This document shows positions 47,048 through 58,220 of a DNA stretch of 64,000 nucleotides, in pieces (within the stretch, counting starts at the first letter, position 1; each line of letters starts with the position of its first letter). Origin of the DNA: Candidatus Cloacimonas acidaminovorans str. Evry (GTDB taxonomy: Bacteria; Cloacimonadota; Cloacimonadia; Cloacimonadales; Cloacimonadaceae). Made by a program: the position numbers and the translations under genes. The stretch covers positions 2,022,654 through 2,086,653 of the forward strand of contig NC_020449.1 in assembly GCF_000146065.2 (NCBI RefSeq), written 5' to 3'. The notes beneath the pieces are model-generated. The model had not been told where the DNA came from. It did not search any database and worked only from the letters and a program-made list of their open reading frames with translations.

Positions 47048-48505
47048 TTATTGTCTCCTGAGATGGCTGTTCAAAATGCCCAATTCATCACGGTATTTAG
47101 TAATAATTCTCCGGGAAATATTTAAGCCCTCCGCTTTAAGAAGTTCTACCAGTTCCTGGTCACTATATGGTTTTTTCTTATCTTCCGTTTCAATTAAGCG
47201 AATTAAATGGGTTTTCACTTTTTGGCGGGAAACGCTTTGATAATCATCATCAAAGCCCGCGGTAGAAGTGAAAAAATCCTTGAAAGCATAAATCCCGTAA
47301 GGTGTTTCCGCATATTTATGTTTAACTACCCTGCTGATTGTTGATTCGTTAACTCCTAAATCTCTTGCAATTACAGCATAGGTAAGAGGTTTCATTTGTC
47401 CGGTACCCAAATAAAAGAAATCATATTGGTGATTGATAATAGAAAGGGAAACTCGTTCCAAAGTTCGCATTCGCATATAAATGGACTTAATTAAGAATTT
47501 GGCGGAATTGATGCGTTCCCGCACATATTGCATCGTTTCTTTGTCAAAATATCCCCGGTTAATCATTTTACGATAGCGGGGACTGATAATAATATTGGGA
47601 GTGATATGATCGTTGATAATGATTTCATATTTGCCGTCTATCAGTTTCATTGTAACATCGGGAAAAACATAAACAGCACTTGTGGAAAGTATACGTAAGC
47701 CAGGTTTGGGATCAAGCTTGGAGATTTGTTCTTTGGCTAATAAAATGGTCTCTTCCGAAACACCGTAGGCAGAAGCAATTTTTTGATAACGACGGTGAAT
47801 AAGATTTTCAAAATGTTCGGAAACCAAGCCCACAAGAATGCGGTTTTGTTTTTGTTCTTCCGTAAGTTGTGCCATCAAACATTCTGTTATATTGCGGGCA
47901 GATATACCTTTAGGGCTCAAGGACAGAATAATATTATGCAGTCCTTCAGCTCGTTCCGCCGTAATTAAATACTTTTTTGCCAAATTAACGATGTTGAAAC
48001 CCTTAGGTAAAAATCCGTAACTATCACAGGAATCAACAATATCGGTAATAAAATCAATTTCGTTTTCCGGCAGTTCCAAGGGAAAAAGTTGTTCCAGAAA
48101 TTTTTCTTTGCCATTTTCTTCATAGCGGATAAGCGCTTCGGTATGATCCGTTTCACTATCGGAAGACCAGCCCTCATAGCTGGAATGGTATTCATTCCAA
48201 GTATCCAAAATTTCTGTCAGTTCTTCAGCTTCCGCCAATGTTTCCAAATGGTTTTCGCTCATATCGCTTTCTTCAATCGGAGTGGAACTTTCAGGAGTGG
48301 ATTGCTCAAAATTGCTTTCATCAATATCATCTTCGTCTTTTTCTTCCCGCAATTCCAGCAAAGGATTATTTACCAATTCCTGTTTAATATAGCTTTCCAG
48401 CTCCAGAATGGGTAAAGCGAGCATTTTTAAGGACTGCAGCATTTTGGGTTTAAGTGCCAGCTCCTGTTTTTGTTTTAAGGACAGATATTGTTCCATTGCG
48501 CTCAT
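47048..48505 (-). CDS. rpoN: RNA polymerase sigma-54 factor
   Basis: 485 residues. Region I is Gln/Leu-rich (LSLKQKQELALKPKMLQSLKMLALPI near 8-33), followed by an acidic linker. The core-binding domain and helix-turn-helix region follow, then the C-terminal RpoN box variant SRRIITKYRDELGI. The start overlaps the lptB stop by 4 bp (ATGA). Sigma-54 needs AAA+ activators, and none are in this window. It belongs to the conserved lptB-rpoN-hpf arrangement. Confidence 0.96.
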   Translation of the reverse strand: MSAMEQYLSLKQKQELALKPKMLQSLKMLALPILELESYIKQELVNNPLLELREEKDEDDIDESNFEQSTPESSTPIEESDMSENHLETLAEAEELTEILDTWNEYHSSYEGWSSDSETDHTEALIRYEENGKEKFLEQLFPLELPENEIDFITDIVDSCDSYGFLPKGFNIVNLAKKYLITAERAEGLHNIILSLSPKGISARNITECLMAQLTEEQKQNRILVGLVSEHFENLIHRRYQKIASAYGVSEETILLAKEQISKLDPKPGLRILSTSAVYVFPDVTMKLIDGKYEIIINDHITPNIIISPRYRKMINRGYFDKETMQYVRERINSAKFLIKSIYMRMRTLERVSLSIINHQYDFFYLGTGQMKPLTYAVIARDLGVNESTISRVVKHKYAETPYGIYAFKDFFTSTAGFDDDYQSVSRQKVKTHLIRLIETEDKKKPYSDQELVELLKAEGLNISRRIITKYRDELGILNSHLRRQ

Positions 48506-49251
48506 AATCGTTGCTCAAAAGGGCTTTCCAGAAATCTTTCGCCCAAATATAATTCCTTGGCTTTTTCGTCATTTATCAGTTCCAGGGAAGAACCTGAAAC
48601 GATAATTTTTCCTTCATAGATAATATAAGCCCGATTTACAATTTTCAAAGTTTCTAAAACATTATGGTCGGTAACCATTATGCCTATGTCTTTATTTCTC
48701 AATTTGGCAATAATATCCTGAATATCTGCTACCGCAATAGGATCAATTCCGGCAAAGGGTTCATCCATAAAAAGAAAAGTAGGATTAGTTACCAAAGCGC
48801 GAGTAATTTCCAGTTTTCTTCTTTCGCCCCCGGAAAGAGTGTATGCTTTTTGTTTTGCCAAAGGGGATAAACCTAATTCTTCCAGGGCTTCTGCTAAACG
48901 ATTTTTCTGTTCTTTCCGGCTGATTTTTAAGGTCTGTAAAATTGCCAGAATGTTTTCTTCCACGGTTAATTTGGCAAAAATGGAAGGTGCCTGAGCCAAA
49001 TAGCCCAAACCTAAACGCGCTCTTTTATACATTGGCTTGTGAGAAATATCCATTTCATCGTAAAAAACCTTGCCGTTATTGGGCTTTGCCAAACCAATAA
49101 TCATATAAAAAGTGGTGGTTTTCCCAGCGCCATTAGGACCTAAAATGCCAACTACCTCTCCCTGACTCATTTCCAGAGAAAGGTCATTTACTACGGCTCT
49201 TTTGCCATATATCTTTACGAGATTTTCAGCTCGGATTTTATGCTTTTCCAT
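48502..49251 (-). CDS. lptB: LPS export ABC ATPase LptB
   Basis: 249 residues from ATG at 49251 (MEKHKIRAENLVKIYGKR). A TTG codon at 49287 would add 12 residues but coincides with a TTGACA promoter element, so I prefer the ATG. Walker A GPNGAGKTT (38-46), signature LSGGERRK and Walker B FLFMDEPFAGIDP are present. It powers removal of LPS from the inner membrane with LptFG. Its normal neighbour lptA is 2.7 kb away because an unrelated gene pair lies between. It is co-translated with rpoN. Confidence 0.95.
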   Translation of the reverse strand: MEKHKIRAENLVKIYGKRAVVNDLSLEMSQGEVVGILGPNGAGKTTTFYMIIGLAKPNNGKVFYDEMDISHKPMYKRARLGLGYLAQAPSIFAKLTVEENILAILQTLKISRKEQKNRLAEALEELGLSPLAKQKAYTLSGGERRKLEITRALVTNPTFLFMDEPFAGIDPIAVADIQDIIAKLRNKDIGIMVTDHNVLETLKIVNRAYIIYEGKIIVSGSSLELINDEKAKELYLGERFLESPFEQRL

Positions 49252-49258
49252 AAAATAA

Positions 49259-49287
49259 TAAGATAGAGAAAGCTGTTTTTTTGTCAA
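49259..49287 (-). promoter_or_regulatory. Candidate lptB promoter giving an almost leaderless transcript
   Basis: TTGACA (49282-49287) and TATCTT (49260-49265), spacer 16. The expected start of transcription falls about 2 bases before the lptB ATG, and no ribosome binding site is seen. Confidence 0.55.
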
Positions 49288-49348
49288 GAAATACTTGCAA
49301 GTGGATTGAATTTTGCTAATATAGGACGGATAGCAAGGAAGAATGAAT

Positions 49349-49430
49349 TAAGTCAGGAGTCGTTACTGCCAAAATAACCTTTAATCTATTTACAAATTTG
49401 TTTGGCTGTGAGGACTCGTGACGGCAAAAA
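49349..49430 (+). repeat. Dispersed repeat family F, copy 2
   Basis: Collinear with 5625-5700 (AAGTC..GTTACTGCC..AATAACCTTT..TTTGGCTGTGAGGA). It lies just downstream of the nucleotidyltransferase gene; a shorter direct copy at 51517 lies on the other side of the gene pair. Confidence 0.65.
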
Positions 49431-49545
49431 AACCGGATTTTTAAATTGGCAACTATCTGTATAATATCCTTGTTCATCCGCTTTAATCTTTTAAATACAA
49501 GTCCTGATAAATCTGTGAAATCTCCATACTTGATCATTTTACAAC

Positions 49546-49618
49546 CAAGTAACACTCAAGTAACAACTCCGTAACGAGACAACGGAAGTGTTACGGAAGT
49601 GTTACGGAGTCGTTACTT
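49546..49618 (+). repeat. Dispersed GTAAC repeat family A, copy 2
   Basis: Nearly identical to 5803-5880 and to the reverse complement of 62579-62648. Contains GTAACAACTCCGTAACGAG at its left and GTTACGGAGTCGTTAC at its right, so the ends can pair. Confidence 0.85.
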
Positions 49619-49666
49619 AATCGTCTATATAACAAGTAGTTATTTAATCAAACTGAATTCCGATTA

Positions 49667-50428
49667 TTAATCCAGATTAAAGATAATTTTTAACCTTTCC
49701 ATTACTTCTTTCAATCCTATCCGGCGGATACCCAAATTCTTTATATTTATTGTTGTATCATTTTCTATCAGGAAAATGAAATCTCTAAGATCGTTTTTTA
49801 CGGAAAGAGGTAATTCAATTATTTCATTTGGCTCAAGAACAGGGAATAAACGAAATACATCATTTTTATGCTTATTTAGCTTTTGGGAAGTTATGTTTTC
49901 CCCCTCAGCCATACTTTTAGTCATATTCAAATATGCCTTGGCTTTAAGAATGATAATGTATGCAGGTCTCAGACAAGATAACCCGTTTATATCCATTAAA
50001 CCATTCTTGATCAAAGAATAATAATTATCATCAAGAATTATAGCTGAAAGCGAAGATAGTTCATTATCTATGGGAATGGGAGTGATTCTGCCATAACCTT
50101 TAAAATCTATTGTCTCAGGGATTCTGGAAAAAAGCTCTATCTGCTCAGGATATATTGCATTAACCGGATTGTTAAACCGGTAACACTTTTTTTCTTCTTT
50201 ATTTTGAAAAATACTTCTATAATTGCCTTTTTCAATAAACTCCCAGAACGCCCTTCCAAATTCCGCACTAAGTGCTTCAACAATAAGGACGATATCTAAA
50301 TCTCTTGTTGCTCTGAAAGTTAAACCTGATTGAGATAAAATTTCTGAACTTGCAGCTCCTCCAATTAGAACATATTGCTCCTTATAATCAATAAAATGTT
50401 CTCTAAAAGTAGTTAGCCCTCTTACCAT
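49667..50428 (-). CDS. AbiEii-like nucleotidyltransferase (putative toxin-type)
   Basis: 253 residues. The nucleotidyltransferase core is visible: GG at 23-24 (VLIGGAASS), then the acidic pair Asp43-x-Asp45 in RATRDLDIVLIV (39-50). The rest is helical, as in the AbiEii/AbiGii group, whose members modify tRNA or NTP-charged targets in type IV toxin-antitoxin and phage-exclusion systems. It starts 7 bp inside the upstream regulator gene, so both are made together. Activity is not shown by sequence alone; it could be a non-toxic NTase. The pair has a lower-complexity flanking context than its neighbours and interrupts a conserved operon. Confidence 0.78.
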   Translation of the reverse strand: MVRGLTTFREHFIDYKEQYVLIGGAASSEILSQSGLTFRATRDLDIVLIVEALSAEFGRAFWEFIEKGNYRSIFQNKEEKKCYRFNNPVNAIYPEQIELFSRIPETIDFKGYGRITPIPIDNELSSLSAIILDDNYYSLIKNGLMDINGLSCLRPAYIIILKAKAYLNMTKSMAEGENITSQKLNKHKNDVFRLFPVLEPNEIIELPLSVKNDLRDFIFLIENDTTINIKNLGIRRIGLKEVMERLKIIFNLD

Positions 50429-51387
50429 TTAATTTTCTCCATCATTTCCTCCAGTGCCATTTGCACTCTTTCATCTGGTTCTTCCTTAAGGCATAAAAAC
50501 AAAGATAAAGGATCAACATAGTCCTCTGAAGTAATTAGTTTGGGATTATAACGCCATAATTGCAATTCATTCGTCTGCTCTTCCTTATAGGGTATCTCCA
50601 CTAAATCGGGAAATTTTTTGGCAATAATGCGAGTAGTTGCATAACTTTCATAATTTTCAGGAGTTAACATACTATACTTTGATAGAGCAGAAAACCCTGC
50701 AAGGCAGAAAGGAACCTGCCGATTTAGCCGAAACCAAATTACTTTATTAATGGGATTAAAAAAATAGGGTTGGGCTTTTTCCCAAAGTTCTTTACCGGTA
50801 AAAAGCCAATGAATAGGTTTTTCTTTCCCACATTCATCTCTCGTTATCAACTCGTATTCAGTCAATTCTCGGAAAGCCCTGGATACATACATAACATTCA
50901 AATAATACTTTTTAGCATACATTGAAACAGTTGAAAGCTGATATTCTTTTTCCAGTAGCGTCCTAATTATTACAACTTGAGTTAAAGAACTGAAACGATT
51001 TCTCTTTTTTACCTCTTGGGAACAGGATTCGTTAAAAAGAATTCCCAGATGGGGTAAATATATTTGATTATCAGGTATAATAAATGATATTCTCTCTTTA
51101 ATGAAAGCTCTCCTTAAAGATGGATTAATAGATTTACTTAAATAGATTACTTTTATTCCAAACCTATTTTCCAAAATATGAGAGTGTAATTTTACGACTT
51201 TAGCCGTTAACATATCTTTTCCTTCAATCAAAAGATAATGCTTCCCATTTAGAGTAAGATCATAGAATATATATTTTTCTGAAAAGAAGTGAGGAAGTTT
51301 ATATCCAATATTATTGTGTCTTATTTCTACCTTAACATCCAGCATATTTTCCAGATACTCTTTTGTTTTTAAGGCGATATTCTTCAT
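50422..51387 (-). CDS. MarR-like winged-helix protein paired with the nucleotidyltransferase
   Basis: 321 residues, with GAGGAG six bases before the ATG. The N-terminal 120 residues look alpha/beta, with a PD-(D/E)XK-like pattern (YDLTLNGKHYLLIEGKDML) and the phrase DNQIYLPHLGILF, seen in proteins annotated as MarR-family regulators next to NTases in Bacteroidetes. A winged-helix segment follows (about 135-205, LTQVVIIRTLLEKEYQLSTVSMYAKKYYLNVMYVSRAFREL). The C-terminal ~110 residues may hold the NTase-neutralising part. Probable role: antitoxin and autorepressor (inferred from order, overlap and the operator upstream). The family relationship is by pattern memory only. Confidence 0.7.
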   Translation of the reverse strand: MKNIALKTKEYLENMLDVKVEIRHNNIGYKLPHFFSEKYIFYDLTLNGKHYLLIEGKDMLTAKVVKLHSHILENRFGIKVIYLSKSINPSLRRAFIKERISFIIPDNQIYLPHLGILFNESCSQEVKKRNRFSSLTQVVIIRTLLEKEYQLSTVSMYAKKYYLNVMYVSRAFRELTEYELITRDECGKEKPIHWLFTGKELWEKAQPYFFNPINKVIWFRLNRQVPFCLAGFSALSKYSMLTPENYESYATTRIIAKKFPDLVEIPYKEEQTNELQLWRYNPKLITSEDYVDPLSLFLCLKEEPDERVQMALEEMMEKIKW

Positions 51388-51396
51388 TTTTGTCTC

Positions 51397-51462
51397 CTCA
51401 TTAACATTTTTTTGTGCTCATTAACATAGTAACTGTTAATGAGAAAAAAGCAAGTTAATGAT
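51397..51462. promoter_or_regulatory. Operator of the regulator/nucleotidyltransferase pair
   Basis: Perfect palindrome: CTCATTAACA (51417-51426), 7-bp spacer, TGTTAATGAG (51434-51443). A third half-site, CTCATTAACA, at 51397-51406 overlaps the ribosome binding site region, and a partial fourth, GTTAATGAT, follows at about 51454. Spacing of the two direct half-sites is 20 bp, two helical turns. Confidence 0.8.
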
Positions 51463-51684
51463 CTAATTATTATATGTGTTATGGTTTCTATTTATTTTCC
51501 CATTCATTCCGAACAGTAAGTCATAAGTCGTCACTGCTTATATAACTTTGCACCTCAATAAAACAGCACAAGTAATTAATAGACATATTTAGCAATTAGT
51601 TTAGGGATATTTAAGAATAAAACCAATTCCGTAAAAATGATAGGTATTAACGACGGGGCTGTCCCAAAACTAACTTTTAGTTTC
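51463..51684. other. Spacer right of the operator, with a family F fragment
   Basis: No gene seen. It contains 51517-51555, a partial copy of family F (AAGTC..GTCACTGC..ATAACTTT), in the same direction as the copy at 49349. Confidence 0.5.
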
Positions 51685-51915
51685 GGGAAAGCCCCTTTTA
51701 TAAAATCTCAACCTTCTCAACTTTCTCAACCTTTTTCAACGAGGGGCTTACGCACCCATCGCTATCATTGTATCGCCCTGCGGGCTTTGAAAAAATCTCA
51801 ACTTCCTCAACCCTCTCAACCTTTTTCAACGAGGGGCTTACGCACCCATCGCTATCATTGTTTCGCCCTGCGGGCTTTGAAAAAATCTCAACCTTCAAAA
51901 CCTTCTCAACCTTTT
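51685..51915 (-). repeat. Inverted GTTGAGAAGG blocks plus two family C elements
   Basis: Two family C elements (51740-51790 and 51830-51880) on the minus strand, repeated with a 90-bp period and separated by short GTTGAGAAGG-type units. It lies right after the end of the lptA-like gene. Confidence 0.88.
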
Positions 51916-51926
51916 TACTTCATTCT

Positions 51927-53006
51927 TCATTTCTTGAACACATACTTGCCCTTGATGTCCGTTTTCATCTGCATATTTTGCAGTTTGCTCTCCTCATCAA
52001 AATTCGCCTGCAGATAAAGTCCTGTAGCGCTATTAATCATAAAATCTTTTTTTTCGGTTTCATCCTGCTGATAGAAATAGCTCACTTCCCCTTCGGCAAC
52101 AAACCTGCGTAGTTGTTCATCCAGAAAATCCATAGTAACGATGTCTGCATCCACAGTATTTTTCTTCTCTTTAAAGCGTTCTTCGGCAAAATCAATATGG
52201 CAGGAATCAATTAATTCGGCTTTAACCAATTCCCTTTCTTTCATAAAGAGATGAAATTCGGTAGCTTTAGCATCGGCAAAATCAGAAATAAATTTTGGTT
52301 CACCGGTAAAAATTGCCTTTTCTTCTTCCAGGAAATAGATTAAAAAATCGCTGGTGGTATGGAATTCACCTCTCTCCACCTGAACATTAAAAGTAGCAAT
52401 AAGTTTGCGTTCCGGTTCAAAATATTCCATTTTTTCAGCCGCTACAGCAAGTGTATCTTCTATTCCTGAAGTAATATAGGGTTCATCCAACAGCAATGCA
52501 TATCCTTTTCCTCTATCCCATTGTGCATAGCCGCATTTCACCCGGGCATTTTCCTGATAATCAAAACCGCGCACTCTGCTCCAGGTAGTAAGGATATCAT
52601 TTTTTTTGTCATAAGTAGCAAAATTGCTTTTAATCCAACGGTAGATGCCTTCTTTAGTTCTTTCGGTAGCAGTTATTCTACCACCCAAATTCATCAAATC
52701 CGGAATGCGATAATAAGCTAAAGTATCAGCTTCCAGTGTTAAACTATCATTTTTTACAATTACATTTCCCGAAAGTCGGGCAATTTTTTGTTTATCTAAA
52801 ATCAGAGCATTCCGACAAAGAAATTCCACCTCTCCGTAAAAGAAATGAACATTGCCGTTAAGTTCCAATGCCTGTTCATTTTCCATTTTAGTCATAAACA
52901 GTTTATCGGAATGAATCAGACGAAATTCCTCTTCCCCCTTTTTTTTGCCAAATAAAGGCAGTAAAAGAAGAAACAGTAGAAAGAAAACAAAACCCTTTTT
53001 CACCAT
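51927..53006 (-). CDS. lptA: LptA/OstA-like periplasmic LPS transport protein
   Basis: 359 residues: signal peptide (MVKKGFVFFLLFLLLLPLF), then OstA-type beta-jellyroll repeats (ELNGNVHFFYGEVEFLCRNALIL, RLSGNVIVKNDSLTLEADTLAYY, FVAEGEVSYFYQQ). Classical LptA is about 185 residues; this one has roughly twice the repeats, nearer to an OstA-like-domain protein that could form a long bridge between membranes. The start overlaps the lptC stop by 7 bp. It probably carries LPS from LptC toward LptD. Sure of the fold, less sure it is strictly LptA. Confidence 0.85.
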   Translation of the reverse strand: MVKKGFVFFLLFLLLLPLFGKKKGEEEFRLIHSDKLFMTKMENEQALELNGNVHFFYGEVEFLCRNALILDKQKIARLSGNVIVKNDSLTLEADTLAYYRIPDLMNLGGRITATERTKEGIYRWIKSNFATYDKKNDILTTWSRVRGFDYQENARVKCGYAQWDRGKGYALLLDEPYITSGIEDTLAVAAEKMEYFEPERKLIATFNVQVERGEFHTTSDFLIYFLEEEKAIFTGEPKFISDFADAKATEFHLFMKERELVKAELIDSCHIDFAEERFKEKKNTVDADIVTMDFLDEQLRRFVAEGEVSYFYQQDETEKKDFMINSATGLYLQANFDEESKLQNMQMKTDIKGKYVFKK

Positions 53007-56669: not shown

Positions 56670-58220
56670 ATGGAAAACCAGAGCCCTCTGGAAAAGCTGA
56701 GAGCAAAACGCGCTGCAGCACTTTTAGGCGGTGGAGAAAAACGCATCGCTGAACAACACGCAAAAGGTAAACTCACTGCAAGAGAAAGGATTGCCCTTTT
56801 GGTTGATCCTGATAGTTTTGAAGAATTTGATATGTTCGTAACTCATCGTTGCACAAATTTCGGATTGGATAAATATATTCATCCGGGAGATGGTGTGGTA
56901 ACAGGTTGCGCAACAATCAATGAAAGAATGGTCTATATTTTTGCCCAGGATTTTACGGTTTTTGGTGGTTCTTTATCCAAGACCTACGCTGATAAAATCT
57001 GCAAAATAATGGATATGGCACTAAAGAACGGTTGTCCTGTTATTGGACTGAATGATTCCGGTGGAGCAAGAATTCAGGAAGGCGTTGATGCTCTTGCTGG
57101 TTACGCGGAAATTTTTTGGCGTAATGTAATGGCAAGCGGAGTGATACCTCAAATTTCGGCAATTTTAGGTCCCTGTGCAGGCGGAGCTGTATATTCACCT
57201 GCCATAACGGACTTTATTGTTATGGAAAAAAGCAACAGCTATATGTTCGTTACTGGTCCTAAGGTTGTTAAAACCGTATTAAATGAAACGGTTACTAATG
57301 AGGAATTAGGTGGCGCAAAAGTTCATACCAGCAAAAGCGGTGTAGCTCATTTCATAGCTAATAGCGAAGAAGAAGCAATGCTCACTATCAAACTTCTGCT
57401 AAGTTACTTGCCTTCCAACAATTTGGAAGACCCACCTTATGTTCCGAGTGCTGATCCTATAACTCGTAATTGTGATGTTTTGAATAATCTTGTTCCTGAA
57501 AATCCTAATAAGCCCTACGATATGCTGGATGTGATTTATCCGATTGTTGATGATGGCGAATTTTTGCAGGTGATGAGTAATTTTGCCCAGAATATTATTG
57601 TCGGTTTTGGCAGGATGAATGGACGTAGTGTAGGAATTGTAGCTAATCAGCCCAAAATTTTAGCCGGTGTTTTAGATATTGATGCCAGTATTAAAGGAGC
57701 TCGTTTTGTGCGATTTTGTGATTCTTTCAATATACCTTTGGTAGTTTTGGAAGATGTTCCCGGTTTTTTACCCGGCACAATGCAAGAGCATAATGGAATT
57801 ATTCGTAACGGGGCAAAACTTCTTTATGCTTTTGCGGAAGCCACAGTTCCAAAAGTTACTGTTATTATCCGTAAAGCTTATGGAGGTGCATATTGTGTTT
57901 TAAACAGTCGTCATATGCGTGCGGATATAGTTTATGCCTGGCCCTCTGCCGAAATTGCAGTTATGGGTCCTGATGGAGCAGTGGAAGTTATTTTCCGTAA
58001 AGAAGCAATGGCTGCAGAAAATCCTAAGGCGGTTCTTCAGGCAAGAGAAAAGGAATATCGGGAAAAATTTGCCAATCCCTTTATTGCTGCGGAAAGAGGA
58101 TATATTGATGATATAATTGAGCCCTCGGAAACAAGATTTCGTTTAATTAGAGCTTTGGAAATGCTGGCAAATAAAAAGGACAGCATTCCTCCTCGCAAAC
58201 ATGGCAATATTCCTTTGTAA
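56670..58220 (+). CDS. mmdA: Methylmalonyl-CoA decarboxylase-type carboxyltransferase (alpha subunit)
   Basis: 516 residues, fitting the acyl-CoA carboxyltransferase family (MmdA/PccB). Crotonase-like halves show [19 protein letters not shown] and [16 protein letters not shown] in the N-domain, and [24 protein letters not shown] with [14 protein letters not shown] in the C-domain. It moves CO2 from methylmalonyl-CoA (or a related acyl-CoA) to biotin. It heads the operon with an OadG-like protein, a biotin carrier and the sodium-pumping beta subunit. The context favours the decarboxylase over a propionyl-CoA carboxylase. The exact acyl-CoA cannot be read from sequence. Confidence 0.92.

Follow-up and report, generated by a model that had tools for sequence, protein, structure and literature searches.

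The window analyzed here, a 64-kb stretch of the complete genome (2,246,820 bp) of Candidatus Cloacimonas acidaminovorans str. Evry, contains two overlapping genes, here termed REG and NT, whose direct neighbors are lptA and lptB; the order on the minus strand is lptA, REG, NT, 415 bp of intergenic DNA, lptB and rpoN (Table 1). The ORF list bears out the two reading frames, their order and their 7-bp overlap as read in the initial annotation. That annotation had also recognized the order kdsC-lptC-lptA-lptB-rpoN-hpf around the pair, and Pfam identified lptC, lptA, lptB, rpoN and hpf there, with a HAD hydrolase at the kdsC position. NT is single-copy in this genome.

Table 1. Features of the lptA-lptB interval (window coordinates) and predicted domains of REG (residues)
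Feature	Position	Strand	Remarks
lptB	48502..49251	-	Pfam; start taken as the ATG ending at 49251; homology within the genus extends upstream to ~49319
Promoter-like element upstream of lptB	49260..49287	-	TTGACA, 16 bp, TATCTT
Dispersed repeat copy (family F)	49340..49450	+	At least 40 matches at E <= 1e-3 in own genome
18-bp inverted repeat (94%) with GTAAC motifs	49558..49618		Downstream of NT
NT	49667..50428	-	Predicted nucleotidyltransferase toxin, 253 aa; ORF list
Overlap of REG stop and NT start	50422..50428	-	7 bp; ORF list; identical overlap in 20/28 homologous loci
REG	50422..51387	-	Predicted antitoxin/autorepressor, 321 aa; ORF list
Operator	51397..51443		Half-sites CTCATTAACA at 51397-51406 and 51417-51426; complement at 51434-51443
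Likely REG-NT promoter	51426..51453	-	TTGCTT (51453-51448), 16-bp spacer, TACTAT (51431-51426); read from sequence
Tandem 90-bp units of a second dispersed repeat family (C)	51630..51926	+	109 matches in own genome
lptA	51927..53006	-	Pfam; homology with congeners ends at ~51935, near the stop codon
REG domains	~1-118; ~124-210; remainder		N-terminal alpha/beta; MarR-type winged helix; C-terminal domain (predicted model)

The pair possesses an operator of its own, as had been surmised: a 47-bp stretch upstream of REG holds three exact copies of the half-site, two of them direct and the third inverted, against an expectation of 0.19 exact copies in the entire window. The last two half-sites form a 10-bp inverted repeat whose sole copy in the genome is this one before REG, and the half-site layout is kept in three genomes of a single genus (G018, G010 and G031) whose REG is about 50% identical to that of the window. 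The candidate promoter is interleaved with the operator, and at the corresponding place these three genomes have TTGCTT and TATAAT separated by 16 bp. Taken together, operator and promoter present the picture of an autorepressed promoter that appears to move with its genes, with REG as the probable binding protein.

Neither of the window proteins reached a Pfam, NCBIfam or PADLOC cut-off; PADLOC likewise gave no match for the REG and NT of G018 or the NT of G022, and a PHROGs search returned nothing useful. The AbiEii family (PF08843) was matched neither by the window NT nor elsewhere in its genome. Alignments of homologues revealed family matches that single-sequence searches had missed: 13 of 23 NT homologues matched AbiEii at E <= 0.1 (best 2.9e-5), while MarR_2 was matched by 15 of 25 REG proteins (best 1.1e-5) and MarR by 10. 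When the NT profile was compared with that of genuine AbiEii proteins from relatives, motifs I and II aligned (P 4.5e-4) at a low hhalign probability of 33%. A sequence search of solved structures with the NT alignment recovered no nucleotidyltransferase (NTase). In Foldseek, the predicted structure of NT (pLDDT 83, pTM 0.84; low-confidence stretches at 76-80 and 103-124) ranked MenT1, from the MenAT1 complex, first (E 1.2e-4), and a second structure aligner returned PbNTase 5uvd (Z 12.0 over 189 residues), MenT3 (Z 10.8, 201 residues), MenT1 (Z 10.2, 171 residues), an NTase of H. pylori (Z 9.1), ANT(2'')-Ia (Z 9.1), LnuA (Z 8.9) and MenT4 (Z 8.3, 182 residues).

The key residues of NT are I22-G23-G24, R39-x-T41-x-D43-x-D45, E98, K162 and D190. 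Across the alignment of 23 sequences G23, R39, T41, D45 and K162 are invariant, D43 is present in at least 90%, and E98 and D190 are nearly invariant; thus, the catalytic pair Asp43/Asp45, whose failure to align would have spoken against the initial call, does align. AbiE motifs I and II (hG[G/S] ... R-x3-D-h-D) are both present. For motif III (K, R) and motif IV (+DxxD) the picture is mixed: K162 is invariant and D190 nearly so, but the motif IV region reads K-N-D-x-x-R. The window protein departs from its family at two nearly invariant positions, with N168 in place of D168 and S172 in place of R172. In AbiEii, toxicity needs G49, R63, D67/D69, K173 and D192, along with the motif III arginine R180 (PMC3985639), and in MenT1 it needs D41/K137/D152 (PMC10435456); the conserved residues of NT, as mapped by order and spacing, fit both sets, and the R172S change perhaps falls at the R180 position, although residue mapping is uncertain here. 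The MenT matches of the model and the AbiEii matches of the homologues bear out the proposal of an AbiEii-like NTase and support the prediction that NT is a DNA-polymerase-beta-fold nucleotidyltransferase of the AbiEii/MenT type.

This fold is also common to the MNT proteins, and the model's matches to ANT(2'')-Ia and LnuA raise the alternative that NT is an antitoxin-type or antibiotic-modifying nucleotidyltransferase rather than a toxin. REG-NT resembles the HEPN/MNT systems in being a two-gene module with a small pol-beta NTase. However, in those systems the NTase is the antitoxin and its partner a HEPN RNase (PMC7641770), whereas no HEPN domain is seen in REG-NT, neither REG nor its 24 homologues giving a Pfam match to HEPN. 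Moreover, MenT3 and MenT1 match the model better and over more residues than do the antibiotic-modifying enzymes, and the R-x-T-x-D-x-D motif together with a winged-helix partner and an operator fits AbiEii/MenT. We hence regard a non-toxin role for NT as very unlikely.

For REG, the MarR and MarR_2 matches of the homologues agree with the earlier description of a MarR-like partner. Its model points to three domains, the relative placement of which is unsure because the pTM is only 0.59 (pLDDT 87). The central segment (residues 124-210) aligns with BusR, CadC, ArsR and MepR at Z ~8, and a sequence search of solved structures with the REG alignment gave weak MarR-type matches only, such as ZitR. 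AbiEi was matched by REG in neither Pfam nor PADLOC and is not among the Pfam families of the 25 homologues; its absence from the Foldseek matches carries no weight. Two other candidates were set aside: retroviral integrases topped the whole-model Foldseek search, but with a TM score of ~0.15 and an rmsd near 18 A such matches are meaningless, and the resemblance of part of REG to the nuclease-fold protein EndoMS (E 0.015) is at most a hint since the REG family keeps no E-x-K motif.

The two genes are strictly linked. Full-length NT and full-length REG occur in the same seven of 125 genomes of the phylum, adjacent in each, with a few partial matches besides, and REG lies directly upstream of NT in all 28 loci where both genes can be read. 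The initial annotation had placed such pairs in Bacteroidetes, which is too narrow because homologues span many phyla: they are found in Acidobacteria, Planctomycetes, Verrucomicrobia-type lineages, Simkania, Clostridiales and Proteobacteria, in four viral contigs and three phage records from human feces, and in 51 plasmid records, 32 of which are conjugative. A partner of 333-377 aa also lies upstream of the more distant NTs on plasmids of Sulfurospirillum, Latilactobacillus, Edwardsiella and Collinsella. Closer to home, the presence of the pair at the same place in all relatives had been named as a refuting outcome; it was found in none of the eight congeners. These patterns support a distribution that is apparently horizontal and patchy. 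Separately, one congener has a short stretch that weakly resembles the winged helix of REG (G003:C106:4842-5060; E 3.8e-4); it may be a remnant, or a winged helix with no relation to REG. The location between lptA and lptB is all that would favor a housekeeping regulatory pair controlling the lpt operon or envelope stress; with the pair missing from all eight congeners, its homologues at unrelated loci and its operator found once in the genome, before REG only, we consider that role exceedingly improbable.

Elsewhere, the pair keeps strong company with defense genes, although this link is an association by inspection and not a statistic. Defense clusters surround five of the seven loci in the phylum: Hma three times, CBASS and a type III methylase. 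In G018, G010 and G031 the pair follows HmaB, and in the first two it is followed in turn by HmaC and HEC-05, the G031 contig ending within NT; the PADLOC identification of Hma was run on the G018 copy, and the three loci count as one event because they come from close relatives. The G092 pair has a type III methylase before it and SoFic after it, and an AbiEi gene is recognized separately in the vicinity; the G098 pair and a CBASS cyclase are 408 bp apart. Other homologous pairs stand directly before PglZ/BrxL (BREX) or HsdR, or near ThsB (Thoeris-type), a type I methylase or AriAB. These neighbors and the plasmid records bear out the expectation of a defense or mobile-element setting. No recognized defense neighbor is present at several loci (G022 and several Acidobacteria), and none lies directly beside the window copy. 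Among the loci observed, genes for a CBASS phospholipase effector and an oligonucleotide cyclase adjoin the pair in another genome of the order (L141:2050-4627), and a viral contig encodes a fused AriAB-type gene ~3.3 kb upstream of it (L098:15-1622).

These contexts allow another reading, in which larger defense operons carry the pair as an accessory, a guard or second line, and NT is set free once the host system comes under attack or is disabled; the window copy would then be an orphan of such an island. In its favor are the Hma loci of three genomes, with the pair after HmaB and, where the contig runs on, before HmaC, together with the pairs set between the methylase and SoFic, directly before PglZ/BrxL and HsdR, and close to the CBASS cyclase. 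Yet the host systems are unrelated, hence the pair has no fixed partner; several loci stand apart from recognized defense genes, the pair retains its own promoter and operator, and the link to defense genes is one seen by inspection. On balance, we see an accessory role as a real possibility, though less likely than not.

Among described systems, AbiE, a type IV toxin-antitoxin system acting in abortive infection (PMC3985639), offers several parallels: it is bicistronic with the regulator first, has an inverted-repeat operator at its promoter, encodes a pol-beta-type NTase with hGG, R-x3-D-h-D and downstream Lys and Asp motifs, and is distributed on plasmids, ICEs and defense islands. In contrast, the window NT has no match to the AbiEii model and REG none to AbiEi, and while AbiEi has an N-terminal winged helix followed by a C-terminal domain, REG places an alpha/beta domain before the winged helix and the C-terminal domain. 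The MenAT systems of M. tuberculosis (MenT1, MenT3 and MenT4; PMC10435456) provide the closest solved toxin folds, and both the MenT fold and its catalytic residues are present in NT by model and alignment, the T/S, D, K and D of MenT having likely counterparts in T41, D43, K162 and D190; however, the MenA antitoxins belong to other families and NT is only ~10-17% identical to MenT in structural alignments. MosAT of the SXT ICE (PMC2654960) likewise has overlapping antitoxin and toxin genes, with a DUF1814 NTase toxin, and stabilizes a mobile element, but by description it is a COG5340-COG2253 pair (PMC3985639). In a literature drawn largely from outside subscription journals, we found no paper joining a MarR-type antitoxin with an NTase toxin.

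Hence, we propose that REG-NT is quite probably a self-contained, horizontally acquired toxin-antitoxin cassette resembling AbiE and MenAT, with an antitoxin not recognized as AbiEi. As far as sequence can speak, fold, motifs, linkage and context all lend good support to the idea of a toxin-antitoxin or defense cassette. Against it count the failure of either protein to reach a family cut-off, the D168N and R172S changes, the low hhalign probability, the lack of an AbiEi domain in REG and the lack of a defense neighbor in the window. By its AbiEii score and its antitoxin the pair falls outside AbiE proper; the proposal that it would work like AbiE/MenAT stands. Briefly, we advance the following plausible mechanism. 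NT would be a toxin that adds nucleotides, most likely to the 3' ends of tRNA or a similar essential RNA, thereby stopping growth. REG would act as both antitoxin and autorepressor: its central winged helix might bind the CTCATTAACA half-sites to shut the shared promoter, and its other domains might hold NT in check. Should REG disappear or be disturbed, as when a phage interferes or the carrier element is lost, NT would then be freed.

A two-gene family that spans many phyla, rides on conjugative plasmids and is embedded in several different anti-phage operons goes unrecognized by the Pfam, NCBIfam and PADLOC models applied in this analysis. Should it prove a toxin-antitoxin system, it would bring the AbiE/MenAT kind a new antitoxin architecture and offer a ready test of pairs guarding larger defense systems. 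More tentatively, and with considerable doubt, REG-NT might be a distinct, widespread and undescribed branch of NTase toxin-antitoxin systems, in which a three-domain antitoxin (alpha/beta sensor-like, MarR winged helix and C-terminal) serves as a portable guard in unrelated anti-phage operons (Hma, BREX, type I/III restriction), releasing a tRNA-disabling toxin once the host system is overcome.

The setting of the window copy can be read only after checking the congeners: what looks like a lone cassette in a housekeeping operon lies where that operon is split throughout the genus. The junction had been described as conserved, and outside the genus it is, with a gap of ~40 bp between lptA and lptB in all 13 family genomes of other genera; the window has 2675 bp between them, and in none of the eight congeners does lptB lie near lptA within the stretch read beyond lptA. 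In six congeners the two genes are on different contigs (of 324 and 135 kb in G005), while in the other two, with assemblies 59% and 80% complete, lptB was not found. Similarity to the congeners runs only slightly beyond the lptA stop and, on the other side, ~70 bp into the DNA upstream of lptB, and the genes beyond these points vary from genome to genome. Indeed, lptA and lptB have different neighbors in nearly all members of the genus (loci L045-L052 and L066-L071), which suggests that gene order outside the operon cores is rapidly reshuffled. As a trace of a shared neighborhood despite the split, G002 has, ~6 kb upstream of its lptB, a gene (L067:8411-9961) that is 94% identical to window positions 56670-58220.

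The TTGACA element before lptB is kept in five of the six congeners compared, and this conservation, along with the split from lptA, marks lptB-rpoN as standing on its own in this genus. Most simply, the junction would have come open before the genus radiated or while it did so, and this genome would either have retained the two halves close together or brought them back. In the tree it is nested within the genus, implying either many independent breaks or one break followed by rejoining, and the tree does not choose between the two. The annotation of a defense islet inserted into an essential operon is therefore supported as to the cassette and not as to a simple insertion, lptB-rpoN being already apart in the genus with its own promoter-like element; REG-NT need not have disrupted an intact operon. 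The empty site sought in sister genomes is absent from the genus, where no congener has a closed junction, and the insertion site can hence be read only from other genera. The cassette would thus sit in an opened lptA-lptB interval, with lptB served by its own putative promoter.

The repeats flanking the pair, which had been taken to bracket it, do exist, but they were rejected as insertion borders: families F and C are both dispersed genome-wide, and the bracket accordingly carries no weight. Their presence on both sides, the lack of defense neighbors and the substitutions at two nearly invariant positions might indicate that the window copy is a decaying relic, active when acquired and with NT now weak or inactive. 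Both ORFs are nonetheless intact with their overlap, and the catalytic core residues, promoter and operator are preserved, making decay unlikely in our estimation. Two smaller elements lie among these repeats. Sequence similar to the inverted repeat at 49558-49618 recurs in two congener loci, and beside the 90-bp tandem units a hairpin-like element at 51657-51695 (GGGGCTGTCCCAAAAC ... GTTTCGGGAAAGCCCC) may be the remnant of a mobile element.
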